From NCBI GenBank assembly GCA_028873815.1, contig JAPPNN010000070.1:1-64000 (forward strand): DNA of 64,000 nt, given 5' to 3'. The notes beneath the pieces are model-generated. The model did no database searches. It saw nothing but the letters and a program-made list of their open reading frames with translations, and had not been told where the DNA came from. This document shows, piece after piece, positions 33,901 to 49,167 of this stretch. Each line of letters starts with the position of its first letter. The first letter of the stretch is position 1. The DNA is from Gemmatimonadota bacterium (lineage in GTDB: Bacteria > Gemmatimonadota > Gemmatimonadetes > Longimicrobiales > Gaopeijiaceae). The translations under genes were made by a program, and so were the position numbers.

Positions 33901-34929
33901 TCATGTCCCCCGAACCGCCCGCTTAACCAGGTTTCTGAGCAGCGGGACCTTGAAGTGGTTGTAGTCGAGGGGGTCGGCGCCCCGGACCGCCAGCTCGCCG
34001 GCCATCTCGGCCGTCTCCTCGTCGCGGGGACGTCCCCGCACGAGGTCCTCCACGGTGGTCAGGCGGCGCGGGACGCACTGCACGGCCCCGGCGACGATAC
34101 GGGCGTCCTCGATGATGCCGCCGCCATTCCCGCCGCCGCTCGTTCGCACCGCCGCCGCCACGCTGACCAGCGCGAAGTCCCAGGTCTTCCGGTCGGCCAC
34201 CTTCTCGAAGTGGAAGTCGGCGCCCGCCCAGCGGTCCGGGATGCGGATCGCGGTGAGCAGGTCGCGCTCTCCCAGCACGGTCATGCGCGTGATGTCGACG
34301 CCGGGCGGCATGAAGAACTCCGCCGCGGGGACGACCTTCTCGCGGCGCGCGCTCCGCACGACCATCCCGGCGTCGAGCGCCACGAGCGCTGGCGCAACAT
34401 CGGATGGGGTGACGGCCACGCAGCGGTCGGCGCCGAAGATGGCGTGCTCGCGGTTCATCGCGCCCGGAGCGCCCGCGTAGCAGGTGTTGCCGCCTGCTCG
34501 GTAGCAGGTCATGCCGTAGCGGTAGTACCAGCAGCGCGTGTCCTGGCAGACGTTGCCGCCGATCGTGCCCGCGTTGCGGATCTGGGGACTCGCGACCTCT
34601 GCCGCGGCGTGGGCCAGGAGTGCGTAGCGTGAACGGATGAGGGGGTCAGCCTCGAGCGTGGCCAGCGTGGTCATCGCTCCGATCTCGATGCCACCGCCGC
34701 CGCCGGGGCCGACTCCGCTCTCCAACTCCGTGACACCCCTGAGCTCGTCGATCCCCTCTAGATCGATCACCACGGCGGGCTGCTTGCCGCGGTTCTTGAA
34801 CCAGTCGAAGCTGTCGTAGCCGCCGGCCAGCGGCCACGCGTCGGCTCCGTGACGGCTCAGCATGTCGAGCGCGCTGTCGAGGTCGACCGGCTGGAGCAGG
34901 TCGAAGTGGGTCATCATGTCGTTCATCAT
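33901..34929 (-). CDS. FAD-binding (medium) subunit of a molybdenum hydroxylase
   Basis: 342 residues of the xanthine dehydrogenase/CoxM type. WPLAGGYDSFDWFKNRG and IEIGAMTTLATLEADPLI line the FAD, and NAGTIGGNVCQDTRCWYYRY is the family signature. Four Cys follow in a short loop (TRCW, MTCY, NTCY, DRC). In the 4-hydroxybenzoyl-CoA reductase beta subunit a comparable Cys-rich loop holds an extra 4Fe-4S cluster, so the same is possible here. Start ATG 34929 has GGAGG 5 bases before it; a TTG at 34941 is the alternative. It is the last gene of the leftward Fe-S, Mo-large, FAD operon. Confidence 0.88.
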   Translation of the reverse strand: MMNDMMTHFDLLQPVDLDSALDMLSRHGADAWPLAGGYDSFDWFKNRGKQPAVVIDLEGIDELRGVTELESGVGPGGGGGIEIGAMTTLATLEADPLIRSRYALLAHAAAEVASPQIRNAGTIGGNVCQDTRCWYYRYGMTCYRAGGNTCYAGAPGAMNREHAIFGADRCVAVTPSDVAPALVALDAGMVVRSARREKVVPAAEFFMPPGVDITRMTVLGERDLLTAIRIPDRWAGADFHFEKVADRKTWDFALVSVAAAVRTSGGGNGGGIIEDARIVAGAVQCVPRRLTTVEDLVRGRPRDEETAEMAGELAVRGADPLDYNHFKVPLLRNLVKRAVRGT

Positions 34930-34948
34930 GGCCGCCTCCAAGGCCTGC

Positions 34949-37346
34949 TCACTGCGTGTTGACCTCGAGCGGCCGGTGCGACTGGGCCTGCTCGGCGAGC
35001 ACGTTGACGATCATGTCCGGGACCACCGGGATGCGGTTGAAATAGTGGCCGCCGAGGGCGTCGGAGATGGCGCACAGCAGCGCGGCCGCGGAGCACCCCA
35101 TCAGCGGCTCGCCCACGCCCTTCGCGCCCACCGGGTTCTGGGGGTCGGCGATGTCGGTGGCGGCCCAGTCGAGATGGGACGGCACGTCCAGGTACGACGG
35201 CGGCTTGGCCTGGTGAAAGCCGATGTTCCCGGCCACCCCGTAGCGCCGGTCGTAGACGTGACGCTCGAGCGCCGCCATGCCGAAGCCCATGACCGCGCCG
35301 CCCTTGACCTGGGCCGCGAGCCCCTGCGGGTGCACGACGGTGCCGCAGTCGGCGACGCCGAGGTAGTCGACGATCTCGAAGGCGCCGGTTTCGACGTCGA
35401 GCTCGATCTCGATAAACCCGGCCGCCAGCGCGGGCACGGTGCCGTCGCGGGGCAGGTTGTCGCGCGCGACGCCGATCAGGCCGCTCCCCGCCAGGTTCGC
35501 GACCGCAGCCGCGGTGACCGGATTCAGGCCGTCGGGTACTTCGTGCCCGCTGAAGCGCTCTCCCAGACGGATCGCCAGCTCGGCCGCGCGCGTAACTGAC
35601 CCGACGCGACGGGTTGGCGCGCGCGAAGACGGCTTCGCCGCCGATGTCGTAGTCCCCGGGCGAGCCGCCCAGCTCCATCGCCGCGATCGCCTTGAGCTTC
35701 TCGACCGCGTCGGCGGCCGCGACGTAGGCGGCGCGCGTCATCGTGAAGGTGGTGTTGCTCCCCACTTGCGGACTGGCCGACGCCAGGTGGCGCGAGGAAT
35801 CCCCGCGCACGATCACGCAGTTCTCCCAGTCGTACCCCAGAACCTCGGCCGCGGCGCGCGAGACGGCCGCATACGAGTACGTGCCGAGGTTCCCCACCCC
35901 GCAGTGGATGTGCAGCTTGCCGTCCGGCGTGATCCGCACGAGCCCGTCCTGGCCGCTCATCCCCGCGGAGTGGAAGGCCTGGCCGACCGCGACGCCGGTC
36001 ACCTTCGACCCGCGCCGCACGCCGCTGCGCGCCAGCCGCTCGTCCCATCCGAACCTGCGGGCGCCCAGATCGAGTGCTTCGCGCAGGTGCGCGCTCGTGA
36101 CCGGGCCCTGGTTGCCGCCATAACGGGAATTGCTGTCGGGCGCGTTGATGCTGCGGATCGCGACCCGGTCGATCCCGAGCCGGGTGGCCGCCTTGTCGAG
36201 GAGCGGCTCCACTGCGCAGGCGATCTGATTCTGGCCCGGACCGCGCTGCGCTCCCCGCGCGGGGGTGTTCGTGAGCACCGGGATCCCGCGGAAACGCATG
36301 GCCAGGGGGGTGTAGACGATGGAGACGGCGCCCGCCGCGCTCCCGAGGTCGCCGAACCCGCTGTTGGGACCGTTTTCCTGCACGATGAAAAGGTCGACCG
36401 CGGTAATGCGGCCGTCTTCCCTGAACCCCATGCGGATCCTTCCCTGGAAGCCCGCCCGCGCCGACCCGATCGCGTATTCCTCCGCCCGGCTGATGCGCAT
36501 CATGACGGGCCTACCGGTCTTGCGCGCCATGTGCGCTGGAATCGACATGACCGGGTACGCGCTCCCCTTGGACCCGAACCCGCCGCCACAGAACTCGGCC
36601 ACGAAGACCAGGTCGGACGGGTCGATCCCGATGTAGCGGGCCAGGCTGCCCAGCGTCGCGCTCTGGCTCTGACTGGAGCCGAAGACATGACATTTGCCGT
36701 TCTGCCAGTAGGCCATTGCCGAACGCGGTTCCATGGAGTGGTGCGACGTGCCGGCCGTGACGAAGCTCTCGTCGAGCACGATCGCCGCGTCCCGGAAGCC
36801 GGCCTCGAGGTCGCCGTAGGACCACTCGTTGTTGACCTCGCCCGTCGGCAGCTCGCCATCGCCCGCGGCCTCGAAGTCGGCGTCGGACCACTTGACCTCG
36901 GAGACGCCCTCGCGGCGCACCACCGTATTGCCGTCCAGGCGGGCGTTGGGGCCGTCCGGACGCAGGCTCTCGAGCGGGTCGAGCACGAACGGGAGCGGCT
37001 CGAGATCCAGCTTGACCTTCCTGATCGCGTCCTGGGCGGTGGTCTCGTCGACCGCGGCCAGCGCCGCGACGGGCTCGCCCACGAAGTGGGGCGTGTTGGT
37101 GAGGATGGGGTTGCCCGCCGCGGGGATCTCGGGGACATCGTCGGCCGTGAGGATCGCGACCACGCCCTCCATCGCGAGCGCCTCCGAGGCGTCGATGCCG
37201 CGCACTCGCGCGTGCGGCATGGGACTCGTGATGAGGCGGCAGAAGAGCATCCCGTCGGCGCGGAAGTCCTCGGCGTACCTGGCGCGCCCGGTGACTTTCG
37301 CGATCACGTCCGGAGGCGTGAAGTCCTTGCCGATCAGGTCAGGCAT
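34949..37346 (-). CDS. molybdopterin-binding large subunit of a molybdenum hydroxylase, frameshifted
   Basis: About 800 residues when both frames are joined. The N-terminal frame (37346 to about 35590) reads IAKVTGRARYAEDF, EFCGGGFGSKGSAYPVMS and ARGAQRGPGQNQIACAVEPL, the usual Mo-pterin contacts. At the (GC)n run 35585-35592 the frame is lost after VSYAR. The family sequence resumes in another frame (AAELAIRLGERFSGHEVPDG) through DCGTVVHPQGLAAQVKGG and KGVGEPLMG, whose Glu is the catalytic base, to a stop at 34949. The original frame stays open to 34926 only as Arg/Pro-rich nonsense, so a gene caller will report an apparently intact but wrong C-terminus. Two bases missing from the GC run, or one extra, explain it. 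The start overlaps the Fe-S subunit by 8 bases. Confidence 0.85.
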
Positions 37347-37965
37347 GGGAGACCTCCCGTGCCGCCCGCATCACCCCGTTCAGGTAGTGGTCGTAGGCAC
37401 CGCAGCGGCAGAGGTTGCCGGACATGGCGCGGCGGGCCTCGTCGCGCGTGGGGTTCGGGTTGGCGCGGAGCACCGCCGCGGCCGCCATCACCTGACCCGG
37501 CGTGCAGAATCCGCACTGCGGGCCCAGCTCGTCGATGAAGGCGCGCTGAACCGGGTGGAGTTCGCCGCCGGGTCCCTCCAGCCCCTCGACCGTCGTGATC
37601 TCGCGGCCGCGCACCCGGTGCGTGAGCGTCGAGCAGGAATAGTGCGCCACACCGTCGATCATGACCGTGCAGGCTCCGCACTCGGCCCGGTCGCAACCGA
37701 GCTTCGTGCCCGTCAGGCCCAGCTTGTAGCGCAGCGTCATCGCGAGCGTCTCCTGCGGCAGGACGTCGACGCGGCGCGTGCGTCCGTTCACCTCCAGCGA
37801 GACCAGCCGGCCGACCGAACCTCGCGCAGCCCCCTGGTGCCGTGCCGCGGCCGGCGCCGAGAACCACGACATCGCCGACACCGAGGCGCTGGTCGCGATC
37901 ACGCTCTTGATGAAGCTGCGGCGCGACACGTTGCCGCGTCCCGGCAGCGGCAGGCTCTCGGTCAT
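37339..37965 (-). CDS. 2Fe-2S small subunit of a molybdenum hydroxylase with Tat signal
   Basis: 208 residues. The N-terminus NVSRRSFIKSVIATSASVSA is a twin-arginine signal, so the complex should be exported folded to the periplasm. The N-terminal ferredoxin cluster uses GCDRAECGACTVMIDG plus CSTL, and the C-terminal cluster uses QCGFCTPGQVMAAAA and GNLCRCGAYDHYL. The subunit passes electrons from molybdenum to FAD. ATG 37965 follows AAGGGAA. This subunit is first in the operon; the substrate of the enzyme (aldehyde, purine or N-heterocycle) cannot be decided here. Confidence 0.9.
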   Translation of the reverse strand: MTESLPLPGRGNVSRRSFIKSVIATSASVSAMSWFSAPAAARHQGAARGSVGRLVSLEVNGRTRRVDVLPQETLAMTLRYKLGLTGTKLGCDRAECGACTVMIDGVAHYSCSTLTHRVRGREITTVEGLEGPGGELHPVQRAFIDELGPQCGFCTPGQVMAAAAVLRANPNPTRDEARRAMSGNLCRCGAYDHYLNGVMRAAREVSHA

Positions 37966-38080
37966 CGTGTGGTTCCCTTTTCCGGAGCGCGTTTCCGACG
38001 TCCCATTGATGGTAGGCGACGGCCGATTCGCGTACAACCGCAGCAGGACCAGGTCCCCAGCGGTTTGTTCGGCGCACCGG

Positions 38081-39448
38081 CTACCTGCGAAAGCTCCTGA
38101 TCTCGACGGCGACGGGGCCGCCCTCTGACGCGATGCTGTCGGCCAGCGTGAACGTCCCCGGCTCGTAGCGGAAGATCTGCGGCGGCAGGCCTTGCCGAAC
38201 ACTCCCGAAGAAGGTCTGGTAGAGCGATCCGTCCGCAGCCGAATGCGCGGCAAATGCGCCCCGGCATCCGCCGCCGTCCAGGGGCGCACAGATCGGGTGG
38301 GAGGCGTCTCGCACGAAAGTCCCGGTGTCCGTGTTCCAGGCGACGGTGCCCGTGAAGAAGGCCGACGCGAAGAGCGTCCCGTCCCCTGAGACGTGCACGT
38401 GCCCCGAGCCCGGGGGGAATCCGTGGGCCAGGCCGACCCGCTCGAGCGTGGCCGGATCGATGATTGCCAGGGTCGATGGCGCGACGTAGTCGCCCGTGTT
38501 CATCACGAACAGCAACCCGTCGGGTCCGAGAGCGCCCAACTGCGGGTTGGTACCCCCCGTCCCGATCTCGGCGGTCACGGTCATGGTGCGCGGGTTGAGT
38601 GCGGTGACCACACCGTCACCTGCGGGCGCATACGTGTCGTCCAGGTTCGCTGAAATCACAAAGGCGAGTGAATCCGAAACCGGCACGATGCTCGTCGGGA
38701 ACTGGGTCACGGAAACAAGGTCGGTGATCGGGCCCCCGCCCTGACCGAGCGTAAACCGGCCCACCTCGTCCGTTTCCTGGTTGGCGACGAGCACGTTCCG
38801 GTCGTCCACGAAGGCCGAGCCCGTGGCGTTCCCGGACTCGAACAGGAAGAACGAGGCGATCTGTCGGCTGCGAAGTTCGATCGTCGCCACCGAAGCCGCG
38901 TTGCCGAGCGGCACCACCGCGGTCTCTCCGCGGATGCTGATCCCGGTTGCGGTCACGGCGCTCGATGCACCCAGCGCGATGTCGTGCCGCTCTTCCGGAT
39001 TGCCCACCTGGAAGAGGCGCACCGCGTTGGCGAGCGAGTGCACGACGATCCCGATCTGCGGCTCCGCAACCGTGCCGTCGAGAAACTCCAGTTCCTCGAT
39101 CAGCAACGAGACCGCGGCGTCGCCCGTGTTGCCGTCCGAATCCGTGGCGGTAAGCGTGATCGTGTGGACGCCCGTCGACGGCAGGGTCACGTCCAGGGCC
39201 GCTCCGGTGCCGAGCGGGCCGTCGATCGAACTCGACCAGGCCAGGGCTGCGGCCGTGAGCGGGCCATCCTGCGGATCGGTGGCGCCGCCGGCCAGCCGAA
39301 TCGGCACGCCTTCGTAGAGCGTGAGGCCGGACGCCGGCGACGCAATGACGGCGGTCGGGGCGCTGGGCCCGGTGGGCGTTTCCTCGCTGCAGGCGGCCAG
39401 GCCGAAGAGGGCGATGAGGATGGTGGGGCGGAGGATGGCGTGAGTCAC
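38081..39448 (-). CDS. propeller-type surface lipoprotein downstream of btuB (BtuG-like candidate)
   Basis: 455 residues. Lipoprotein signal with TILIALFGLAACSEETP. Residues about 30-125 form a PKD/Ig-like domain (TAVIASPASGLTLYEGVPIR, TGVHTITLTATDSDGNTGD). The rest reads as YncE-like propeller blades (VFVSG-type strands: SAFVDDRNVLVANQETDEV, GVVTALNPRTMTVTAEIGTG, STLAIIDPATLERVGLAHG). In Bacteroides the lipoprotein BtuG, a propeller that binds B12 very tightly, is encoded beside btuB; this gene has the same position and layout under the same riboswitch, so a corrinoid-capture role is inferred. GTG 39448 is chosen for AAAGGAC upstream; an ATG at 39517 overlaps the btuB stop. Confidence 0.72.
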   Translation of the reverse strand: MTHAILRPTILIALFGLAACSEETPTGPSAPTAVIASPASGLTLYEGVPIRLAGGATDPQDGPLTAAALAWSSSIDGPLGTGAALDVTLPSTGVHTITLTATDSDGNTGDAAVSLLIEELEFLDGTVAEPQIGIVVHSLANAVRLFQVGNPEERHDIALGASSAVTATGISIRGETAVVPLGNAASVATIELRSRQIASFFLFESGNATGSAFVDDRNVLVANQETDEVGRFTLGQGGGPITDLVSVTQFPTSIVPVSDSLAFVISANLDDTYAPAGDGVVTALNPRTMTVTAEIGTGGTNPQLGALGPDGLLFVMNTGDYVAPSTLAIIDPATLERVGLAHGFPPGSGHVHVSGDGTLFASAFFTGTVAWNTDTGTFVRDASHPICAPLDGGGCRGAFAAHSAADGSLYQTFFGSVRQGLPPQIFRYEPGTFTLADSIASEGGPVAVEIRSFRR

Positions 39449-39513
39449 GAGATCTCTGTCCTTTCTGCGGTGAGCGTGTGGGTTTGAGCGCTGTGTTGGG
39501 GGAAGGGCCGTGT

Positions 39514-41697
39514 TCATCGCCCGGCTCCGAAGCGCATGCGGATCGACCAACCACGGCCCGGCAGGGGGTAGTCGGCGAGGAGCGCGGCGCGCTCGTCGAA
39601 GATGTTGTTCACCGCGAGGTCGAGCCGTCCCGACATCCGGCCGAACGCGAACGGAATCGCAACCCCGGCGTCGACCAGGGTGTAGCCGTCCAGCGCGTTC
39701 AGCGCCGAGCCGGGCACGGTGCGCCGCGCTCCCACGTGGGTGGCCGCGGGCGTCAGGGCGATCCCGCCGGGAAGAGCGATTGCGCACGAGAGGTCCGCGG
39801 TGAACCGGGGGCGGTAGGCCACCTGGCCGTCGAGCACGGGTCCGGTGTATTCGACTTCCGACCAGGCGGCGTTCGCGGTGAAGGAATGCGCCGAGTTGCC
39901 CGTGGGCAGCTCGGCGGTCGCGCCGAGTTCGAGGCCCCGGCGCGTCACGTCGTAGTTGTCGGGGCTCCACACGAAGCGGTGGTCCGGAAACCACAGGATC
40001 ATGTCGTCCTGGTCCGCGCGGTAGGCGGTTCCGCGCACCTGTCCGGCGACGGGGCCCAGCGACCACGCCTGCGACAGGGAGGCGGTGAGTTCGCCGCGAA
40101 TGCGCTCGGGCCTGAGGTCCGGGTTGGGCTCGACGAGCACTCCCTCCTGGAAGAACAGGTCGCCGAGTCCGGGTGGCGAAAAACCGCGTCCCCAGCGCAG
40201 GTCCGCGGTGAGTCCCGCGCGGGTCAGGACGGCGTCGAGGGCGGGGGACAGGGTGGTGCCGTCGACGAGATCGTGGCGGTCCGCGCGGACGGCGGCGCCC
40301 AGGTCGAGGCGGACGCCGTGCCCCGGTTCCCAGGTGTGCCCGGCCCGCGCCCACGCCCCGAATTCGCCCAGGTCGATCGCGGGAGACGCGAGTGCACTGG
40401 ACGCGATGTCGAGCCGGGCGGAGTGAAGACCGGCCCGCAAGGAGGGCGCCTCCCGCCGCCACCATCCTTCCAGCGCGAGTTCGGCGCGGCGCACGCGGGT
40501 CCGGGTGTCGTAGGGGCGGCCGAAGGGAGGCGCCGGGTCGGCGAACTCGGCGCGCTGCCACTGGATTGTGGTCCGGGCCGTGCCGCCCAGGCGGGAGTCG
40601 CCGGGCTCGATTCGTGCGCTGACGCCCCATCGCCGGTGGTGCTGCCGGCCGGTCAACGACGGTTGCGCGATCGTTCCCGGGCTGCCGCGCTCGACATTGT
40701 TCACGTGGGCACGCAGCGACGCGTTCACGCCGCCCCGCCGCGCGACGCGCACTTCGGTCCCGGCCTGCGTGAAGGCGGCGTTCTCGCGCGTTGTCTCGCC
40801 GCCGCCGCGGAAGGCGGGCACGTCGTAGAGGAAGGCACCGCCAGAGTGCCGCCAGCGCGCGGACCCGGCCACCGACCAGGCGCTCCCCAGTGACCGCGAT
40901 GCCGTTGCCGAGGTTGCGGCCGAGGACCAGGAACCCGTCCCGGCCGTGAACGAGGCGGCCGCGGGACCTGCGTCGCGGCTCTCCAGCAGGACGACGCCTC
41001 CGAGGGCCCGGGGTCCGTACCGGGCCGACTGTGCGCCCGGAATCACGACGATGCGCGCCAGACCCTCGAGGTCCACCGTGCCGAGGTCCGCTTCCCCGGT
41101 CAGGGGTGAATTGACGGGCGTGCCGTCGAGGAGGACCAGCACCTGGTCGGCGCCCGAGCCGCGGAGTTGCACCACCGCGGGGGCACCCGGCCCCCCCCGC
41201 CGCACCACCGTCGCACCCGGGACGCGGTCGAGCGCGGCGGCCAGGTCCGCCACCCCGGGGGAAAGGCTCGCCGGATCCACGATCGTCGCGCCGCCCACCC
41301 CTTCACGGGACCCGACCCGCACGTCCAGCCCCGTGAGTCGCACGGGCGCGGGATCGAGTACCACGCTCGCACGCGTCAGCCGGCCGTTGACGGCCTCCAC
41401 TTCGACCGTGGCCTCCGCGAAGCCGAGCGCCGAGATCGTCAACGCGTGCCTTCCCGGCGGCAGGCCGCGCAGCAGGGCGCTCCCGCCCGGGTCGGTCAGC
41501 GTGGCGAGGCCCGTGCCACGCACGGTGACGGCCGCGCCCCCAACCGGGATCGTCGTGGCTGGAATGGCGCGGCGCTCGTCCACCGGTGCGGCGAGCGCGG
41601 CCCGCACGGTCACGTGAACATTGGCCGTGACCTGGGCAGACAGCTCCGCCGATGGCACAAGTAACGCGGCGGCGAGCAGCGTTGCGGCTCTTGTCAC
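39514..41697 (-). CDS. btuB: TonB-dependent cobalamin receptor (BtuB-type)
   Basis: 727 residues. Signal peptide (TRAATLLAAALLVPSAELSA), then a carboxypeptidase-regulatory-like domain (TLTDPGGSALLRGLPPGRHA), a plug (LAAALDRVPGATVVRRGG, VQLRGSGADQVLVLLDGTPV, GAQSARYGPRALGGVVLL) and a beta barrel ending in IRMRFGAGR. The barrel contains GFSPPGLGDLFF and NPDLRPERIRGELTASL, common in BtuB and other vitamin receptors. The cobalamin assignment rests mainly on the cobalamin riboswitch just upstream and on the btuFCD/cob genes across the divergent promoter. GTG 41697 is preceded by a hairpin that contains the likely ribosome-binding site. Confidence 0.88.
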   Translation of the reverse strand: MTRAATLLAAALLVPSAELSAQVTANVHVTVRAALAAPVDERRAIPATTIPVGGAAVTVRGTGLATLTDPGGSALLRGLPPGRHALTISALGFAEATVEVEAVNGRLTRASVVLDPAPVRLTGLDVRVGSREGVGGATIVDPASLSPGVADLAAALDRVPGATVVRRGGPGAPAVVQLRGSGADQVLVLLDGTPVNSPLTGEADLGTVDLEGLARIVVIPGAQSARYGPRALGGVVLLESRDAGPAAASFTAGTGSWSSAATSATASRSLGSAWSVAGSARWRHSGGAFLYDVPAFRGGGETTRENAAFTQAGTEVRVARRGGVNASLRAHVNNVERGSPGTIAQPSLTGRQHHRRWGVSARIEPGDSRLGGTARTTIQWQRAEFADPAPPFGRPYDTRTRVRRAELALEGWWRREAPSLRAGLHSARLDIASSALASPAIDLGEFGAWARAGHTWEPGHGVRLDLGAAVRADRHDLVDGTTLSPALDAVLTRAGLTADLRWGRGFSPPGLGDLFFQEGVLVEPNPDLRPERIRGELTASLSQAWSLGPVAGQVRGTAYRADQDDMILWFPDHRFVWSPDNYDVTRRGLELGATAELPTGNSAHSFTANAAWSEVEYTGPVLDGQVAYRPRFTADLSCAIALPGGIALTPAATHVGARRTVPGSALNALDGYTLVDAGVAIPFAFGRMSGRLDLAVNNIFDERAALLADYPLPGRGWSIRMRFGAGR

Positions 41698-41701
41698 TTG
41701 A

Positions 41702-41722
41702 CCCCGTCTTCTCCAGACGGGG
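41702..41722 (-). promoter_or_regulatory. hairpin over the btuB ribosome-binding region (riboswitch expression platform)
   Basis: CCCCGTCT (41702-41709) and AGACGGGG (41715-41722) are exact complements around a 5-base loop, 4 bases before the GTG of btuB at 41697. The stem and loop hold the only purine-rich sequence near the start, so folding would hide the ribosome-binding site. This fits translational control by the riboswitch upstream. Confidence 0.6.
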
Positions 41723-41794
41723 AGAAGCACGGCCCGTCCGCGCCGTGGCGCAGACCGGGAACCCCGCCCTCCCTCGAGGGTGATGGTTGATAGC

Positions 41795-41957
41795 GACGGA
41801 GGAGAGGTCTCCTGGCTTGGGACGGATCCGCTCGCCTTCCCGGGCATCGCTGCCCAGTGGCCTGTTGAGCGGGTCCCTACGGAACCGGAATCCCGTGTCC
41901 CTTTACAGTGGCGGGGCCGCGCCGGTCTTTCACCGGACTTCCGAGCGCCCCTCCGTC
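41795..41957 (-). ncRNA. cobalamin riboswitch controlling btuB
   Basis: On the minus strand the conserved elements appear in order: GGAAGTCCGGTGAAAGACCGG, reading into GGCCCCGCCACTGTAA (end of the P6 region), a second GCCACTGGGCAG, CCCGGGAAGGCG, and the B12 box AAGCCAGGAGACC. GACGGAG (41957-41951) pairs with CTCCGTC (41801-41795) to close P1. These are diagnostic of the cobalamin (AdoCbl) riboswitch class. It lies about 100 bases before btuB, so high cobalamin should turn off btuB and the lipoprotein gene behind it. Confidence 0.95.
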
Positions 41958-41974
41958 TGCGAGTTGTAGACGAA

Positions 41975-42041
41975 TGGGTAGTACGTCCAGCTTCCGCGCG
42001 CAACGTCCAGGGTTGCTGTACGGTCCCGATCAGATTATCGT
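41975..42041. promoter_or_regulatory. divergent promoters of the two cobalamin riboswitch transcripts
   Basis: Between the two riboswitches. Rightward: TTGCTG (42013-42018), 17-base spacer, TATCGT (42036-42041), which would start RNA just before the riboswitch at 42054. Leftward: TTGCGC (42003-41998), 17-base spacer, TACCCA (41980-41975), just before the riboswitch that starts at 41957. Spacing is ideal in both; the hexamers are only moderate matches. Confidence 0.45.
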
Positions 42042-42053
42042 GGCGCGCTGTAG

Positions 42054-42271
42054 CGAGGGGGCCACCGGAAGTCGGTCGGAAGCCGACGCGGCCCCGCCAC
42101 TGTAGGAGGCCCGGATCCCCGACCGGATCCGGCACGACGCGCTCGACAGCCACTGGGGTTTCCGTTGCGGGCAGGTTGCCGCAGGCGGATGTGACGGACC
42201 GCCGTTACGGATCGCTGGCGCCCCGGGAAGGCAAGCGACGTCGCCTCGAGCCAGGAGACGCGGCTCCCTCG
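42054..42271 (+). ncRNA. cobalamin riboswitch controlling btuF and the downstream B12 operon
   Basis: Conserved elements in order: CACCGGAAGTCGGTCGGAAG, GGCCCCGCCACTGTAGG, CAGCCACTGGGGTTT, CGCCCCGGGAAGGCAAG and the B12-box sequence GAGCCAGGAGACG. CGAGGGGGCC (42054-42063) pairs with GGCTCCCTCG (42262-42271) to close P1, with one G-T pair. The 3' P1 strand is also complementary to the ribosome-binding region of btuF (CGAGGGAG near 42288-42295), so alternative folds could control translation. It lies head to head with the btuB riboswitch. Confidence 0.95.
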
Positions 42272-42303
42272 GCCTTGCACCAACCTTCGAGGGAGGGGAG
42301 CCG

Positions 42304-43209
42304 GTGTACAAGCAAATGCCGCGGCCAGCGTTTCTCGTCCTCCCCGCCGTGCTCCCGCTGCTGGCCTCCTGTGCGCCGGTAGACGGTGCGAAGCCATCGG
42401 GGCTTGCCGTCGCGGACGACACCGGACGCACCGTGTCGCTGTCCGTACCCGCGGAGCGCGTCTTCTCCGTCGTCCCGTCGCTGACCGAATCGGTGACGGC
42501 GCTCGACCGCAGCGTCCTCGTCGCCCGCACGCGCTTCGACCTGGCGCCCGAACTTGCACACCTTCCTTCTCTGGGTGACGCGATTCGTCCGAACCTCGAG
42601 GCATTGGTGCGGCTGGAACCGGATCTCGTCATCAGCTGGGACGATCCGGACCAGCGCACCTTCGCCGACCAGATCGGGGCGCTGGGCATACCGGTCTACC
42701 GCGCCAACGTGCAGACGATTGCCGACGTGCGCAGTCATTTGCGGCGCCTAGGCGTCTTGCTGGACCGCGGTGAACGGGCCGAAGCGATGGTCGACTCGCT
42801 GGATCAGGCACTCGCCCGCGTAGCCGCCGCCGTTCAGGGGCGCGACCGCGTGGCCGTCTACTACTCCGTCTGGCATGACCCGCCGCAGACCACCGGGCCT
42901 GGGACCTTCATCGACGAGGTCATCGAATACGCGGGCGGCAGGAATGTGTTCGGCGATGCCTCGAACGCCTGGCCGCTGGTGTCCCTCGAGGCGATCCTGC
43001 AGCGTAACCCTGACGCCCTGGTGATTGCCCGCCATACGGGGGACCAGCCTGCGGCGCCCTGGCTCGACCGACCCGGCTGGCGGGAACTGGAGGCCGTCCG
43101 CACCCGCCGGTACCTGCTGGTGGAGGGGGACCTGTTCAATCGCCCGGGTCCGCGCGTGGCCGAGGCTGCATTGCAACTGGCCCGCTTTCTGCACTTCGAG
43201 CCAGAATGA
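42304..43209 (+). CDS. btuF: cobalamin ABC transporter substrate-binding lipoprotein (BtuF-type)
   Basis: 301 residues. FLVLPAVLPLLASCAPVDG is a lipoprotein signal, so the binding protein is probably anchored rather than free in the periplasm. The class III periplasmic-binding fold is clear: [79 protein letters not shown] and SLEAILQRNPDALVIA. It would deliver corrinoid from BtuB to BtuCD. GTG 42304 has GAGGGAGGGGAG just upstream; an ATG at 42316 is too far from it. First gene of an eight-gene operon under the riboswitch. Confidence 0.9.
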   Translation: MYKQMPRPAFLVLPAVLPLLASCAPVDGAKPSGLAVADDTGRTVSLSVPAERVFSVVPSLTESVTALDRSVLVARTRFDLAPELAHLPSLGDAIRPNLEALVRLEPDLVISWDDPDQRTFADQIGALGIPVYRANVQTIADVRSHLRRLGVLLDRGERAEAMVDSLDQALARVAAAVQGRDRVAVYYSVWHDPPQTTGPGTFIDEVIEYAGGRNVFGDASNAWPLVSLEAILQRNPDALVIARHTGDQPAAPWLDRPGWRELEAVRTRRYLLVEGDLFNRPGPRVAEAALQLARFLHFEPE

Positions 43210-43252
43210 CAGCCATGACCCCCGATTCGATCACACCTACAGGATCATCGCC

Positions 43253-44383
43253 ATGAACATCCCATGTCGTGTCCCCGTTCGTTCACCTCTTGGGGCCGCC
43301 GCCGTGGCCTTTCTGCTTGCGGTTCCTGCCTCTGCCCAGTCGCCCGAACTCGTCTTCCTGTCGAACATCACGGGCACGGCGAGCGACGGCCGGGCGCTCG
43401 CGACCGTCGAGGAGCAGACCTCGGCCGCGCTGGACGCGCTCGGAGAACAGCTCGCGGCGCGCGGGCTCGGCTACGAACACGTTGTCGCCGTCAACGTGTT
43501 CCTCAGGGACACCCGGCACTTCCAGGCGATGAACGGAGTCTACCGCGGCTACTTCCCGGTGGACCCGCCCACGCGTGCGACCGTCGAGGCCGACCTCCCC
43601 GACCGGGACGCGCACGTGCAGATCTCGGCGGTGGCCACGCCTGACGAGACCGAGGTCATCTCACCTCCGGGGCTGCAGTCGCCGGCGCTGCCGTATTCGT
43701 GGGGCATCCGCGCGGGCGATGTGCTCTTCATCGCGGGCGCGACGAGCCGCGATCCGGAGACCTATCAGCCCGTGGGAGGGGACGTGCAGGCCCAGACGAG
43801 GCGCGTCTTCGGGAACATCGGGATGATCCTGGAAGAGGCCGGAATGGGTTACGGCGACCTTGTGAGCTGCAAGGTCTTCCTGGACGACGTGCGCCTGTGG
43901 GGCGACATGAACGACGCGTACCGCGAGTTCGTCACCGCCGACGATCCGCCCGCGCGGGCCGCGGTGCGCGGCGGGCTCATGAATCCGGCCTTTCTCGTCG
44001 AGATCCAGTGCGTGGCGGAGCGGTCGGACGAGCGCCGGGTCGTGCTGCGCGAGGGTCAGCGGCGGGGACGGTCACCGCTTTCTCCGGCGATCGCGACCGG
44101 TGAACGCGTCTGGCTTGCGGGGATGCTCGCGCAAGGGGAGGACGCACGGGACGAGGCGCGGAACACGCTGGCCAGTCTCGGGGGAACGCTTGAGGCTGCG
44201 GGACTGGGATTCGGGGACGTGGAGGACATTTGGGTCTATCTGACCGACGTGCGCGATGCGTCCGCGGTGCTGGAGGTGCTGGCCGAGGTGATGCCGGGCG
44301 AAGTGCCGCCGGTGACCGTTGCGGGGCTGCCCCTGGTGGGTCGTTTGGGGGTGGAGATTCAGATGACGGCGGTGGTGCGCTGA
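43253..44383 (+). CDS. secreted protein with three tandem RidA (YjgF/UK114) domains
   Basis: 376 residues. A signal peptide (LGAAAVAFLLAVPASAQ) is followed by three RidA-like domains: about 27-140 (LDALGEQLAARGLGYEHVVA, VNVFLRDTRHFQAMN), 145-262 (GDVLFIAGATSRDPET, GMILEEAGMGYGDLVSCKVF) and 265-376 (GERVWLAGMLAQGED, DVEDIWVYLTDVRD). RidA enzymes hydrolyse reactive enamines/imines. The substrate-binding Arg is kept in domain 1 (PTRATVEADLP) and domain 2 (PARAAVRGG) but lost in domain 3 (PPVTVAG). An exported triple fusion is unusual, and its role inside a B12 operon is unknown. It sits between btuF and cobT, 43 bases after btuF. Confidence 0.82.
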   Translation: MNIPCRVPVRSPLGAAAVAFLLAVPASAQSPELVFLSNITGTASDGRALATVEEQTSAALDALGEQLAARGLGYEHVVAVNVFLRDTRHFQAMNGVYRGYFPVDPPTRATVEADLPDRDAHVQISAVATPDETEVISPPGLQSPALPYSWGIRAGDVLFIAGATSRDPETYQPVGGDVQAQTRRVFGNIGMILEEAGMGYGDLVSCKVFLDDVRLWGDMNDAYREFVTADDPPARAAVRGGLMNPAFLVEIQCVAERSDERRVVLREGQRRGRSPLSPAIATGERVWLAGMLAQGEDARDEARNTLASLGGTLEAAGLGFGDVEDIWVYLTDVRDASAVLEVLAEVMPGEVPPVTVAGLPLVGRLGVEIQMTAVVR

Positions 44384-44390
44384 GCCACTC

Positions 44391-45485
44391 GTGAGCACAT
44401 CCGCCACGTTGCTGGAAGAGGCGATCGGCCGTGTGGTGGCCGCCGCCCCACCGGGGGATCCGGTTGCGGTCCAGACGCACCTCGACGCGCTGACCAAACC
44501 GCCGGGAAGCCTCGGCCGCCTGGAGGCACTCGCGCTGCAGGTGGGCTGTGTGCTGGGCGATCCGCCGCCCTCCCTCGACCGCGCCGTGGTGTTCGTCTTC
44601 GCGGCGGATCACGGGGTCTCCGCGCGGGGCGTGTCGGCGTATCCGGCCGAGGTCACGGCGCAGATGTGCGCGAACTTCTCCGGTGGCGGCGCGGCGATCA
44701 ACGTGCTTGCGCGGACGTGCGGGGCCCAGGTGCGGGTGGTCGACGTGGGCGTCGCGGCGGACGTCGCCGGGTTGGACGGGATCGAGCACCGGAAGGTCCG
44801 TGCGGGGACCGACGATCTTTCGGCGAGGCCCGCGATGACGGCGGAGGAGGTCATGGCGGCGCTGGCCGTGGGGGTGGAGGTGGCGGGGGGTGCGGACGCG
44901 TGGCTGGTGGGCGTCGGCGAGATGGGTATCGCGAACACGACCGCGGCCGCGGCGGTGACGGCTTGCCTTACCGGGGCCGCGGCGCATGAGGTCGTGGGCC
45001 GCGGCACGGGGATCGACGATCGTGGACTGGCCCGCAAGCGCGAGGTGGTGAAGCACGCTGTGGCGCGGGTGGTTCGGCTGGAGGACCCCCGGGACGATGC
45101 GCTCGAGGTGCTGCGCCAGGTTGGCGGGCTGGAGATTGCCGCGATGACGGGAGCCATGGTCGGGGCTGCCGCGCGGGGCGCGCTCGTGCTGGTGGACGGT
45201 TTCATCTCCTCGGCCGCGGCGCTGGCGGCCTGCCGCCTGTGCACCGCCCTACCGCCATACCTTGTCGCGTCGCACCGATCGACCGAGCCGGGCCACGCGG
45301 TGGTGCTCGACACGCTCGGCCTGGTTCCTCTGCTCGACTTCGAAATGCGGCTGGGCGAGGGGACCGGGTGCGCGCTCGCCATCCCGGTCGTGCGGGCGGG
45401 CGGGGCGCTGCTCTCCGACATGGCGACATTCCAGTCGGCGGGAATATCGGGGCCGGGTGGAGATGTGCCTGGGGCCGCTTCATGA
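44391..45485 (+). CDS. cobT: nicotinate-nucleotide--dimethylbenzimidazole phosphoribosyltransferase (CobT)
   Basis: 364 residues; makes alpha-ribazole phosphate for the lower ligand of cobalamin. DALTKPPGSLGRLEALALQ at the N-terminus, FAADHGVSARGVSAYPAEVT, GEMGIANTTAAAAVTACLTG, GRGTGIDDRGLARKREVV and LLDFEMRLGEGTGCALAIP with the catalytic Glu are all as in the family, and the length is typical. GTG 44391 is 7 bases after the RidA gene. The stop overlaps the cobU start (ATGA). Together with cobU, cobS and cobC it forms the nucleotide-loop assembly pathway. Confidence 0.95.
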   Translation: MSTSATLLEEAIGRVVAAAPPGDPVAVQTHLDALTKPPGSLGRLEALALQVGCVLGDPPPSLDRAVVFVFAADHGVSARGVSAYPAEVTAQMCANFSGGGAAINVLARTCGAQVRVVDVGVAADVAGLDGIEHRKVRAGTDDLSARPAMTAEEVMAALAVGVEVAGGADAWLVGVGEMGIANTTAAAAVTACLTGAAAHEVVGRGTGIDDRGLARKREVVKHAVARVVRLEDPRDDALEVLRQVGGLEIAAMTGAMVGAAARGALVLVDGFISSAAALAACRLCTALPPYLVASHRSTEPGHAVVLDTLGLVPLLDFEMRLGEGTGCALAIPVVRAGGALLSDMATFQSAGISGPGGDVPGAAS

Positions 45486-46015
45486 TGAAGCTCGTCGTGG
45501 TGACGGGAGGCGTTCGCTCCGGGAAGAGCCGGTGGGCGCAGGACGAAGCGCTGGCGCACGGGGGCGAAGAGGTCACCGTGATCGCGACCGCCGCGGCCGT
45601 GGACGACGAGATGCGTGACCGGATCGCTGCCCACCGCCGCAATCGTCCTGCCGGTTGGCGCACCATCGAGGCGCCGGAGCGGGCGGGCGAGGCGATCCTG
45701 GCCGCCGGGACGGACACGGTTGTGCTGGACTGCGTGACCGTGCTCACCGGCATGGCGATCGGGCGCGCGGGTGCGAAGAGCGAGGCGGCGGCGCTGGACG
45801 CGATGGCCGCCGAGACCGACGGGATCCTGGAGGCGAGGGACGCGCGCACCGGGGTGCTCGTCGTCGTGACAAACGAGGTGGGGTGGAGCGTGCATCCGCC
45901 CACCGCGGTCGGACGCTGGTACCAGGACGGATTGGGTATTGCCAATCAGCGTCTCGCCGCCGCCGCGGACCAGGTGGTGCTTATGGTCTCCGGGCTGGAG
46001 ATGCGACTCAAATGA
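45482..46015 (+). CDS. cobU: adenosylcobinamide kinase / adenosylcobinamide-phosphate guanylyltransferase (CobU)
   Basis: 177 residues; phosphorylates adenosylcobinamide and transfers GMP to it. P-loop VVVTGGVRSGKSRWAQDEAL near residue 5, ATAAAVDDEMRDRIAAHRRNRP with the conserved His (GMP carrier), VVLDCVTVLTGMA and VVTNEVGWSVHPPTAVGRWY, GIANQRLA are family signatures. Two adjacent ATG codons, at 45482 and 45485; the first overlaps the cobT stop. The stop overlaps cobS (ATGA). Confidence 0.95.
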   Translation: MMKLVVVTGGVRSGKSRWAQDEALAHGGEEVTVIATAAAVDDEMRDRIAAHRRNRPAGWRTIEAPERAGEAILAAGTDTVVLDCVTVLTGMAIGRAGAKSEAAALDAMAAETDGILEARDARTGVLVVVTNEVGWSVHPPTAVGRWYQDGLGIANQRLAAAADQVVLMVSGLEMRLK

Positions 46016-46785
46016 GGACCGCTCTCCGGGGCGCGCGCGCCGCCTTCGTCTTCATGACCCGTGTGCCCGTGGGCGGTTTCCCGTACTCGGCCCGGGAGTG
46101 GCGTTGGGCGTCGGCGTGGTTCCCGTTGGTGGGGCTGGTCGTTGGGGCGGTGTGCGCGGGGGTGTGGTGGCTGGCGGCTCCGCTGGGACCGTGGGTCGCT
46201 GGGATCACCGCGCTGGTCGCGTCGATCCTCCTGACCGGCGCTTTCCACGAAGACGGACTCGCCGATACCGCCGACGCGCTGGGCGGAGCGCACGACCGCG
46301 CGAAGATTCTCGTCATTCTGAAGGACTCGCGGGTCGGTGCCTTCGGGGCGCTCGCCCTGGTGATCTCGATCGCGTTTCGGTTGGTGCTGCTCGCAGGGCT
46401 CGCGGGCGCCGCTCCCTTCGCCCTCCTCCTCGCGCACTGCCTGGCGCGTGTCGGCCCCGTCTGGCTGATGGTCGCGATGCCCTACGTGAGCGATGCGGCG
46501 TCAAAGAGCCGTCAGGTCACACGTACCGGGGCGGCCCACGGGGTAATTGCGACCGCGACCGGGGTGGCGGTGGCCGGGGGTGTGGTGTTGGCGGGGGGCG
46601 TGAACAACGCCGCCTTCGCGGCATTCGCCGTGATGGCCCTCGCCACCGCGTTCTGCGGCTGGCGGTTCCGCGCGCGGGCCGGCGGCGTGACCGGCGACTT
46701 CCTGGGCGCCGCGGAGCAGGTGAACGAGATTGTGATCCTTTTCACAATCCTCGCGGTGCTGCAGGTGGCAGGGTTTGGCCCATGA
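46012..46785 (+). CDS. cobS: adenosylcobinamide-GDP ribazoletransferase (CobS)
   Basis: 257 residues; integral membrane enzyme that joins adenosylcobinamide-GDP and alpha-ribazole (or its phosphate). FMTRVPVGGFPYSAREWRWA at the N-terminus, the metal-binding FHEDGLADTADALGGAHDR near residue 82, ILKDSRVGAFGALALV and GVTGDFLGAAEQVNEI at the C-terminus are conserved. Six to seven hydrophobic helices are visible. Overlaps cobU and cobC by 4 bases each. Confidence 0.95.
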   Translation: MRTALRGARAAFVFMTRVPVGGFPYSAREWRWASAWFPLVGLVVGAVCAGVWWLAAPLGPWVAGITALVASILLTGAFHEDGLADTADALGGAHDRAKILVILKDSRVGAFGALALVISIAFRLVLLAGLAGAAPFALLLAHCLARVGPVWLMVAMPYVSDAASKSRQVTRTGAAHGVIATATGVAVAGGVVLAGGVNNAAFAAFAVMALATAFCGWRFRARAGGVTGDFLGAAEQVNEIVILFTILAVLQVAGFGP

Positions 46786-47360
46786 TCCGCGTCCTCGCCA
46801 TCCGCCACGCACCCGTCACCGTCGAGCGCGTCTTCTACGGGCAGACCGACGTGCCCACGACACTCGACGCCAGCGAGGCGGCTGCGCGCATCGAGCACAC
46901 CGTGACCGAGTTCGATCCGGGCACGATCTGGTCTTCCGATGCTGTGCGCTGCCGGGAGCCCGCCGCACTGCTGTCGGAGCGGCTCGGCGTGCAACATCGG
47001 ATCGACGAGCGGGTGCGCGAGATGTCCTACGGTGACTGGGAGGGGCGGGCCTGGGACGCCGTGCCGCGGGCCGAAGTCGACGAGTGGATGACCGACTGGC
47101 AGAATCGATCCCCTCCCGGGGGTGAGAGTGTCACCGCGTTCACCGAACGGGTCGCAGCGTGGTGGCGGGAACTCGGGCCGGGGCAACACTTCCTCATGGC
47201 TCACGCGGGAGTGGTCCACTGCCTCGATGTCGTCGCCGCCGGTCTCGCCTGGGAGAAGACCGTCGAACAGCGACTGGACTTCCTGGAGGCCAGGCAGTTC
47301 GCGCGGCCGCCCGTGTCCCTGGCACGCGATCCTTCGAGCGAGGGGAGCCGCCCAAAGTGA
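46782..47360 (+). CDS. cobC: histidine phosphatase, probable alpha-ribazole phosphatase (CobC)
   Basis: 192 residues of the branch 1 histidine phosphatase fold. The catalytic motif reads VLAIRHAPVTV (RHA instead of RHG), followed by YGQTDVPTTL, WSSDAVRCREPAALL (second Arg), MSYGDWEGRAWDAV (Glu) and FLMAHAGVVHCL (second His). The operon position among cobT/U/S supports dephosphorylation of alpha-ribazole phosphate or adenosylcobalamin phosphate. It overlaps cobS (ATGA) and btuC (GTGA). Confidence 0.87.
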   Translation: MIRVLAIRHAPVTVERVFYGQTDVPTTLDASEAAARIEHTVTEFDPGTIWSSDAVRCREPAALLSERLGVQHRIDERVREMSYGDWEGRAWDAVPRAEVDEWMTDWQNRSPPGGESVTAFTERVAAWWRELGPGQHFLMAHAGVVHCLDVVAAGLAWEKTVEQRLDFLEARQFARPPVSLARDPSSEGSRPK

Positions 47361-48352
47361 CACACACGCCACGCCGGCTCGTTCTCCTCGCGCTCGTCCT
47401 CGTGGCCGCAATGGCGATCAGCGTCTCCTTCGGCGCATCCGGACTCGGTCCCGCCGACCTGTGGCGCGCGCTTTCGGCCGATGGCGACCCCACCGCGCGA
47501 TCGATCCTTTTGCAGTTGCGGCTGCCGCGGGCCGTGCTGGCTGCCCTCGTCGGCGGTGCGCTCGGCCTCAGCGGCTGCACTTTTCAGGCACTCCTGCGCA
47601 ACCCGCTGGCCGACCCGTACGTGCTCGGCGTTTCGGGCGGAGCCGCCGTCGGCGCGGTGGCGATCGTCGTGACCGGCATCGGCGTCGTGCTTCCCTGGAC
47701 GCTCCCGGTCGGCGCGTTCCTCGGCGCAGTCGCCGCGATGGCACTCGTCCTGGAGATCACGCGGCGCGCCTCGCCCGGGAGAATGGACACACGCGTCCTG
47801 ATCCTTGCGGGAGTCATCATCGGCGCCTTCTTCAACGCCATCATCCTGCTCATGCTCTCCGTCGCCGATGTCGAGTCCTTCCGCTCGGCGGTCTTCTGGA
47901 TGATGGGCAACCTGTCGGGCGCCGACTGGGGCTCGACGTCGCTGCTGGCGGTCCTGCTCGTGCCGACGGGCGTGGCGGTGCTCTCGCTGGCTCGCGCCTT
48001 CAACCTCCTGTCGCGGGGCGAGGAGGTCGCCCACTACCTGGGCGCATCGGTGCAGCGGGTGAAACTGACCGCCTACCTGGCCGCGTCGCTGATGGTCGGC
48101 GCGGCCGTTGCGGCCGCTGGCGTGATCGGCTTCGTCGGACTGATCGTGCCGCACGCGGTACGGCTCGCGTGGGGGAACGATCACCGCCTGCTCCTCCCCG
48201 CGTCTTTCCTGGCCGGGACATCGTTCCTCCTGGTGGCGGACACGGTTGCGCGGCTGGTCGTTGCGCCGGCGGAGCTGCCGACCGGAGTGGTGACGGCCGT
48301 GGCCGGGGTGCCCTTCTTCGTGGCGTTGCTGATGCGCGGGGGGCGGCGGTGA
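47357..48352 (+). CDS. btuC: cobalamin ABC transporter permease (BtuC, FecCD family)
   Basis: 331 residues with about ten membrane helices. ILLQLRLPRAVLAALVGGAL, LSGCTFQALLRNPLADPYVLG, VLILAGVIIGAFFNAI, FWMMGNLSGADW, GVIGFVGLIVPHAVRL and ELPTGVVTAVAGVPFFVALL are standard FecCD/BtuC motifs. It forms the membrane channel for the BtuF-bound vitamin. The GTG overlaps the cobC stop, and a GAGGGGAG ribosome-binding site lies inside the end of cobC. The vitamin assignment follows from the operon and riboswitch, since sequence alone does not part BtuC from siderophore permeases. Confidence 0.92.
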   Translation: MTHTPRRLVLLALVLVAAMAISVSFGASGLGPADLWRALSADGDPTARSILLQLRLPRAVLAALVGGALGLSGCTFQALLRNPLADPYVLGVSGGAAVGAVAIVVTGIGVVLPWTLPVGAFLGAVAAMALVLEITRRASPGRMDTRVLILAGVIIGAFFNAIILLMLSVADVESFRSAVFWMMGNLSGADWGSTSLLAVLLVPTGVAVLSLARAFNLLSRGEEVAHYLGASVQRVKLTAYLAASLMVGAAVAAAGVIGFVGLIVPHAVRLAWGNDHRLLLPASFLAGTSFLLVADTVARLVVAPAELPTGVVTAVAGVPFFVALLMRGGRR

Positions 48353-49167
48353 GCGCCGACGGGCGCCCCGTGCTGCACGGCCGGGGCCTCACCTTCACGC
48401 ACCCACGCGCGGAGGAGGCGGCCGTGCGTGAAATCTCGCTGTCCGTGCATCCGGAGCAGCTTCTCGCCGTCGTCGGTCCGAACGGTGCGGGGAAGACCAC
48501 GCTGCTGAGGCTGCTCACCGGCTCGCTCACCCCGCAGCAGGGTGAAGTGCGGCTCGGTGACCAACTCCTGGGCGAGTTCGGCGACCGTGAACGGGCCCGT
48601 GCACTCGCGGTGGTGCCGCAATCCGAGTTCTCGCCCTTTCCCGTGACCGTGCGGGAGATGGTGGCGATGGGCCGCTACGCGCACCTCGGCCCGTGGGAGC
48701 GGACCGGCGCGCACGACCGAGTCGTGGTGGACCGCGCGCTGGAGCGGTGCGCCGTCGCCCAGTTCGCCAGGCGTCGGCTCGGCGAGCTCTCCGGAGGCGA
48801 ACGCCAGCGTGCCCGCATCGCACGCGCTCTCGCGCAGGAAGCCCCGATACTGCTCCTCGACGAACCCACCGCCGGACTCGACCTGCGCTACCGCATGGAG
48901 CTCTTCCACCTGCTCAGGGAACTGCGCGCCGAGGGACTTGCCGTGTTGGTCATCACGCACGATCTGAACCTCGCGGCCCGCTTCGCCGACCGTCTGCTGC
49001 TGCTCGACCGCGGTCGGGCAACGGCCCGTGGAGCTCCCCGAGACGTGCTCTCGCGCGAAGCGCTGGAGGCCATGTACCACTGGCCGCTCCGGCTTGTCCC
49101 GCACCCCGGACCCGGGAGCGATACCGGTGCGCCGCAGACGATTCCGCTCAGGAGGGACGATCCGTGA
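48349..49167 (+). CDS. btuD: cobalamin ABC transporter ATPase (BtuD)
   Basis: 272 residues. Walker A VVGPNGAGKTTLLRLLTG, Q-loop AVVPQSEFSPFPVTV, MGRYAHLGPWER typical of FepC/BtuD, signature LGELSGGERQRARIARALAQ, Walker B ILLLDEPTAGLDLRYR and H-loop VLVITHDLNLAARFADR are all intact. GTG 48349 overlaps the btuC stop (GTGA). It is the last gene of the operon. Its 3' end overlaps the convergent lipoprotein gene by 20 bases, so no room remains for a separate terminator. Confidence 0.94.
   Translation: MSADGRPVLHGRGLTFTHPRAEEAAVREISLSVHPEQLLAVVGPNGAGKTTLLRLLTGSLTPQQGEVRLGDQLLGEFGDRERARALAVVPQSEFSPFPVTVREMVAMGRYAHLGPWERTGAHDRVVVDRALERCAVAQFARRRLGELSGGERQRARIARALAQEAPILLLDEPTAGLDLRYRMELFHLLRELRAEGLAVLVITHDLNLAARFADRLLLLDRGRATARGAPRDVLSREALEAMYHWPLRLVPHPGPGSDTGAPQTIPLRRDDP

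Follow-up and report, generated by a model that had tools for sequence, protein, structure and literature searches.

The 64,000-nucleotide stretch of DNA analysed here (the window; positions 1 to 64,000 of contig JAPPNN010000070.1, from a Gemmatimonadota bacterium) carries on its minus strand a vitamin B12 uptake locus in which btuB, the gene for a TonB-dependent receptor, is followed by the gene for a lipoprotein resembling the BtuG proteins of Bacteroides. The pair is headed by a cobalamin riboswitch (41785..41968; Rfam RF00174, 70.4 bits against a gathering threshold of 31.5), as the original prediction for this DNA had proposed. The btuB gene (39514..41697) encodes a receptor of the long type, with an N-terminal carboxypeptidase-regulatory-like domain (Pfam CarboxypepD_reg) in addition to the Plug (2.6e-18) and TonB barrel (2.7e-20) domains; its top NCBIfam family is TonB-B12 at 4.8e-24, far under the cut-off of that family. 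The lipoprotein gene begins with a GTG codon 65 nt downstream of btuB and, with its stop codon, occupies 38081..39448, ending at 38081. We describe its 455-residue product as BtuG-like on the basis of its translation, lipobox and AlphaFold2 model. The stretch between btuB and the lipoprotein gene shows no terminator-like site; the single one in 37900-42400 lies inside btuB, and chance alone would give 1.6 over that interval. We infer that the two genes are co-transcribed.

Domain architecture of the lipoprotein

The product opens with a signal peptide and lipobox (LAAC; residues 1-20, 39389..39448, minus strand), recognised from the sequence, and the lipidated Cys20, followed by SEETPTGP, is nearly invariant (at least 90%) in an alignment of 44 sequences. 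An Ig/PKD-like domain (residues ~31-118; 39095..39358, minus) and a seven-bladed beta-propeller (residues ~125-455; 38084..39076, minus) follow. Sequence evidence taken alone is weak for these domains: the PKD_4 match (E=0.0027) and the one YVTN repeat (E=0.004) are both under cut-off, and a phmmer search of PDB chains returned a solved bacterial Ig domain, 9kvu, at E=0.0042. The AlphaFold2 model built from the 44 sequences is confident overall (mean pLDDT 90.2, pTM 0.82). Its signal peptide is modelled with low confidence; a beta-rich domain spans ~31-118, and the 28 strands after it read as seven blades of four with the C-terminal strand closing blade 1. The strands of the model thus delimit both domains, together with the PKD_4 and 9kvu matches for the first and Foldseek for the second, and the predicted order of lipoprotein signal, Ig/PKD-like domain and propeller is borne out.

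The Ig domain had been taken as the feature that sets this protein apart from BtuG. It is indeed present in the window protein, but it is untypical of the family and seen only in close relatives: those with at least 61% identity to the window protein carry it, and it is gone in those at ~53% and below. A search of genome contigs with the window protein returned a single match confined to the Ig domain besides two close relatives, which are 89% identical (Gemmatimonadota bacterium RHO1_bin_69) and 65% identical (Longimicrobiales bacterium PL25a_bin.86). Elsewhere in the phylum, modules resembling the Ig domain at roughly 35-55% identity recur in larger frames, often as repeats, and for this reason the domain is probably a shuffled module. 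Since it separates the propeller from the lipid anchor, it probably acts as a stalk or spacer in the window's clade.

Pairing of the propeller with BtuB across the phylum

Among 395 Gemmatimonadota genomes, the full-length window protein found matches in 114 at 1e-5, in some cases by way of the Ig domain alone, and a propeller-only profile (A2) matched 127 at 1e-10, of which 105 reached at least 100 bits. At E of 0.001 or lower the RF00174 riboswitch was found in 356 genomes, in 355 of them above the cut-off, and the propeller profile therefore marks a subset of the genomes with B12 riboswitches. The locus set comprised a first 60 regions taken from full-length matches (Ig-only matches excluded, two fragments, in genomes G058 and G197, included) and a further 40 taken from matches to the propeller-only profile; eight of the 105 genomes with at least 100 bits lie outside it (G066, G119, G232, G243, G271, G335, G341, G355). 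Plasmids searched with the propeller gave no match, and those searched with the BtuB of locus L065 gave two receptors whose matches cover 29% of the query. Of 102 loci one, L061, lacks a propeller frame and was dropped from the count of upstream neighbours; it comes from the same genus as the window and holds only fragments of the lipoprotein and btuB genes, ~5 kb apart, as if both had decayed.

The original prediction called for a survey of btuB neighbours in related genomes, and the linkage proved to be conserved from both sides. Directly upstream of the propeller, on the same strand, stands a BtuB-like receptor in 75 of 101 loci (59 of the long type, 16 lower-scoring). Another 20 lack an adjacent BtuB but carry one or more of btuF, btuC and btuD, so that 95 of the 101 have one or the other. 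Three of the remainder end at a contig edge and three have neither receptor nor uptake gene; the latter are L088 and L116, where little sequence lies upstream, and L135, a 60-bit second match in genome G019 that is probably another propeller. The riboswitch is over threshold in 19 of 20 hand-chosen propeller loci (10/10 and 9/10), the exception being L065. Viewed from the receptor, a profile of the paired BtuBs matches 85 of the 395 genomes at 1e-60. All 85 of these matches were compared with 79 propeller matches (70 of at least 300 bits, from which two tandem second copies were excluded, and nine at 50-75 bits); propeller matches of 100-300 bits were excluded, the effect of which can only be to lower the linkage count. 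For BtuB matches of at least 460 bits, the pairing is near-obligatory: the propeller is next on the same strand in 58 of 60, at a gap of 90-476 nt (median 187), and in the other two the BtuB and propeller genes lie on separate, broken contigs. On the strength of such linkage, chance placement of the propeller beside btuB was set aside. At 270-460 bits one of the 79 propeller matches is next in 7 of 15 and at 200-270 bits in none of 10.

In 20 loci with lower-scoring BtuBs (L159-L178, three of which already had a propeller match), a lipoprotein frame, judged by eye, follows the receptor in 18; L174 has none and L175 ends at a contig edge. The divergent long BtuBs of L159-L173 are followed by divergent lipoproteins. 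Profile comparison shows those that were aligned to be homologues of the propeller, whose profile they match over its length (hhalign: alignment A5, 98.6% and 1e-15; A6, 99.7% and 2.7e-25), so the BtuB-propeller pairing is wider than profile A2 shows. Two loci, L053 (2057-4314) and L055 (5832-8089), have two tandem propeller lipoproteins after btuB, the second ~25% identical to the window protein. In L103, L105, L106, L111, L113 and L122 the order is btuF-btuC-btuD and then directly the propeller, without an adjacent BtuB.

The partner receptor belongs with known B12 receptors. The paired-BtuB profile (A3) finds Bacteroides BtuB1 best among PDB entries, at 5e-49, followed by E. coli BtuB (4e-43), BtuB2 (5e-38), BtuB3 (5e-35) and 9gbc, a XusA entry (2e-28). 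Compared as single sequences, the L065 BtuB is closest to BtuB1 and the window BtuB slightly closer to E. coli BtuB. For comparison we chose by hand, among the riboswitch matches listed, 20 loci in 19 genomes that lack a propeller match. Seventeen hold a recognisable receptor, scoring only 122-174 bits with the long-BtuB profile, and the propeller profile found no match in up to three frames downstream of each. Judged by eye, several of these frames resemble recO or selB, and the one after the L141 receptor encodes a lipoprotein that looks like a propeller of another type. The L149 receptor, the sole one of the 17 compared with the PDB, matches E. coli BtuB at 2e-40. An absolute split, with long BtuBs accompanied by the propeller and E. 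coli-type BtuBs without it, is ruled out by 19 propeller loci that hold an L149-like BtuB. In L108, L114, L117 and L120 the propeller is separated from an E. coli-type BtuB by a second BtuF-like protein.

Propeller and receptor have also diverged together. Across 59 loci their pairwise distances correlate at 0.89, a value reached by none of 2000 permutations. In the 33 loci used for the wider comparison the propeller correlates with BtuB at 0.89, with BtuF at 0.77 and with BtuC at 0.72, and its partial correlation with BtuB is 0.76 given BtuC and 0.70 given BtuF; BtuB and BtuF themselves correlate at 0.91. When loops are assigned to the two faces of the propeller by strand order, 30 of 98 loop residues on the top face are strongly conserved versus 6 of 55 on the bottom face (p 0.006), and mean conservation differs less between the faces (one-sided p 0.035). 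By our own lipobox rule, 79 family frames with distinct post-Cys stretches have a lipobox and nine have none, and 45 BtuF frames lack one. Counted from the lipidated Cys, positions +2 to +4 include an acidic residue in 62 of the 79 propellers versus 6 of 16 lipoprotein-type BtuF proteins; a lipoprotein export signal after the Cys has been described for Bacteroidetes (PMC6143338).

Relationship to BtuG and competing readings

Our preferred reading, to which we give a probability of about 0.8, is that the window protein plays the part of BtuG in Gemmatimonadota, as a corrinoid-capturing lid on the adjacent BtuB. In Bacteroides, the corrinoid is described as captured in a pocket of the BtuG propeller, which forms a cap over BtuB; release of the vitamin is attributed, as a proposal, to a loop of the receptor (PMC10404256). 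The most economical reading of the Gemmatimonadota pair, by analogy, is a similar scheme. The seven-bladed propeller of an outer-membrane lipoprotein, oriented towards the cell exterior, would capture corrinoids on its conserved face and cover the neighbouring BtuB like a lid; it would hand the vitamin over to BtuB, which would then import it via TonB. In the window's clade the Ig/PKD-like domain would serve as the stalk or spacer from anchor to propeller.

The original prediction left open whether the protein is an analogue or a distant homologue of BtuG in another phylum, and our comparisons favour distant homology, with probable common descent, over pure analogy. A Foldseek search of 350,542 PDB chains with the window model returns BtuG chains at ranks 1-14 (1.3e-13 to 1.2e-10), with a designed propeller at rank 15 (1.4e-10); the expected propeller fold thus has BtuG structures as its nearest neighbours. 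With an Ig-less member of the family, from locus L065, BtuG makes up 16 of the top 17 (best 4.3e-17), the propeller 1L0Q taking rank 6. Identity to BtuG in the Foldseek alignments is 12-22%. Profile A2 finds BtuG1 (8blw_B) at 5e-11, BtuG2 and BtuG3 chains at ~5e-4 to 1e-3 and E. coli YncE at 2.5e-4. It is because the family profile finds BtuG1 at this level, and because the paired-BtuB profile is nearest to BtuB1, that we prefer the distant homologue. Several results weigh on the other side. By VIA-align, 1L0Q and other propellers are equally close or closer, and BtuG is not singled out; 1L0Q also matches profile A2 better than BtuG1 does (5.5e-21), and generic propellers match it too. No BtuG match was obtained when the window protein was searched with phmmer at E up to 10 against PDB chains that include BtuG1, BtuG2 and BtuG3, and for want of such a pairwise match we do not call it BtuG proper. 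Profile A6, from the divergent lipoproteins, matches designed propellers, with BtuG not among its PDB matches at E up to 1. The Pfam family DUF5074 recognises a BtuG1 fragment over its cut-off (29.3 against 27.2 bits); the window protein is not among its matches at E up to 1, and of the 44 homologues four reach E of 0.01 or lower, the best at 1.4e-5.

The closeness of 1L0Q and other propellers, the missing pairwise match and the result for profile A6 speak for a functional analogue, an ordinary YVTN/YncE-type propeller lipoprotein recruited to btuB in Gemmatimonadota independently of BtuG and binding corrinoids. We regard this as possible, if clearly the lesser prospect, and it differs from the preferred reading in descent alone, the odds of the two overlapping. 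The rank of BtuG by Foldseek for two members, the profile match to BtuG1 and the nearness of the paired receptors to BtuB1 all speak for shared descent instead, as does the membership of Gemmatimonadota in the FCB group, in which we also take Bacteroidota to be placed. A different arrangement would have the lipoprotein face the periplasm, where it might for instance pass corrinoid from BtuB to BtuF with no external lid. The 20 of 101 loci with uptake genes and no adjacent BtuB would fit such a role, and, although no search was aimed at one, we are not aware of a surface-export signal established in Gemmatimonadota. We nevertheless consider it unlikely, given that BtuF already covers the periplasmic step and that the acidic residues after the lipidated Cys, commoner in the propellers than in BtuF, recall the Bacteroidota export signal. 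Finally, propeller lipoproteins of the XusB type stand beside TonB receptors in Bacteroides and bind siderophores (PMC13142918), so the protein might bind another ligand and owe its place in corrinoid loci to operon history only. With the riboswitch in 19 of the 20 loci scanned, and BtuB, BtuFCD and cobamide-salvage neighbours in many, this seems very improbable, and a XusB-like siderophore identity was set aside on locus context; the absence of the name XusB among the 50 structure-comparison matches listed excludes nothing.

The odds seem to us slightly better than even that B12 receptors lidded by a lipoprotein are ancient in the FCB group and did not originate with Bacteroidota. On this reading a long BtuB in Gemmatimonadota hardly ever lacks its propeller, the family has split into several lid subtypes, some lineages combine the propeller with a BtuB of E. 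coli type or just with BtuFCD, and an Ig stalk marks one clade. The lid arrangement would then exist outside Bacteroidota and beyond gut competition alone. The loci with or without a lid, with an Ig stalk or with an E. coli-type partner would offer natural contrasts for asking why a receptor needs a lid, and the propellers might yield new corrinoid-binding reagents.

Neighbouring genes and known systems

A second, divergent cobalamin riboswitch (42067..42259, plus strand; RF00174, 40 bits against a gathering threshold of 31.5) precedes btuF (42304..43209, plus), which encodes a periplasmic corrinoid-binding protein (Pfam Peripla_BP_2 2e-24; NCBIfam BtuF 2.4e-31, under cut-off). Open frames in 44391..49167 (plus) make up a set of corrinoid salvage and uptake genes that we take, by eye, to be cobT, cobU, cobS, cobC, btuC and btuD, and similar genes recur in other propeller loci. 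Between btuF and the putative cobT, 43250-44383 (plus) encodes a protein with what look like RidA-like domains, with similar genes in L033, L036, L042 and L043. Elsewhere in the window, 34926-37346 (minus) together with 34949-35437 (minus) appears by eye to encode the large subunit of a xanthine or CO dehydrogenase-type enzyme, seemingly in two frames, with an apparent frameshift or assembly error near 35440-35560. An NHL-repeat propeller protein (32869-33897, plus; Pfam NHL 1.7e-30) belongs to a family different from that of the corrinoid-locus propeller.

BtuG homologues were called exclusive to Bacteroidetes in a 2018 survey of 313 human gut strains, which used BlastP at 1e-10 and fold matching for divergent cases (PMC6143338); given that sample, the claim did not test Gemmatimonadota. 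Lipoprotein-capped TonB transporters were likewise said in 2023 to seem exclusive to Bacteroidetes (PMC10404256), and both papers tie BtuG or capped transporters to gut competition (PMC6143338; PMC10404256). Gemmatimonadota cultures are reported to need B12 (PMC10581226). In the open-licence literature of PubMed Central, preprints excluded, we found nothing that joins BtuG with a Gemmatimonad, nothing on btuB with a beta-propeller and a cobalamin riboswitch, and nothing on a surface-exposed lipoprotein in a Gemmatimonad.

Several characterised systems bear comparison with the pair described here. XusB of Bacteroides (DUF4374), likewise a lipoprotein with a seven-bladed propeller, cooperates with a TonB-dependent receptor (PMC13142918), but its ligands are iron-siderophores and its loci are not corrinoid loci. 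The BtuJ/DUF4465 proteins bind B12 and are mostly lipoproteins; at least eight bacterial clades have them, often in loci for B12 transporters (PMC13398666). They form a separate protein family, and the main text of that report does not mention Gemmatimonads. That B12-binding lipoproteins of this kind are known from several clades tempers the surprise of finding one in Gemmatimonadota. The partner receptor belongs to the same family as Bacteroides BtuB1 and E. coli BtuB, the propeller-paired receptors being mostly of the long type. The closest parallel is with BtuG1, BtuG2 and BtuG3 of Bacteroides (PDB 8BLW, 8BMX, 8BMY, 8OKV, 8P97), which are seven-bladed propeller lipoproteins encoded beside btuB in riboswitch-controlled B12 uptake loci. 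Their hallmarks also include very tight binding of corrinoids in the propeller pocket and a stable lid complex with BtuB; for such a complex in Gemmatimonadota the gene pairing and the co-divergence are indirect indications. The window protein differs from them in its phylum, its low identity and lack of a pairwise match, an export signal that is not established, and, in its own clade, the N-terminal Ig domain. BtuG1 likewise carries an extra domain, which in its case is homologous to BtuH (PMC10404256).

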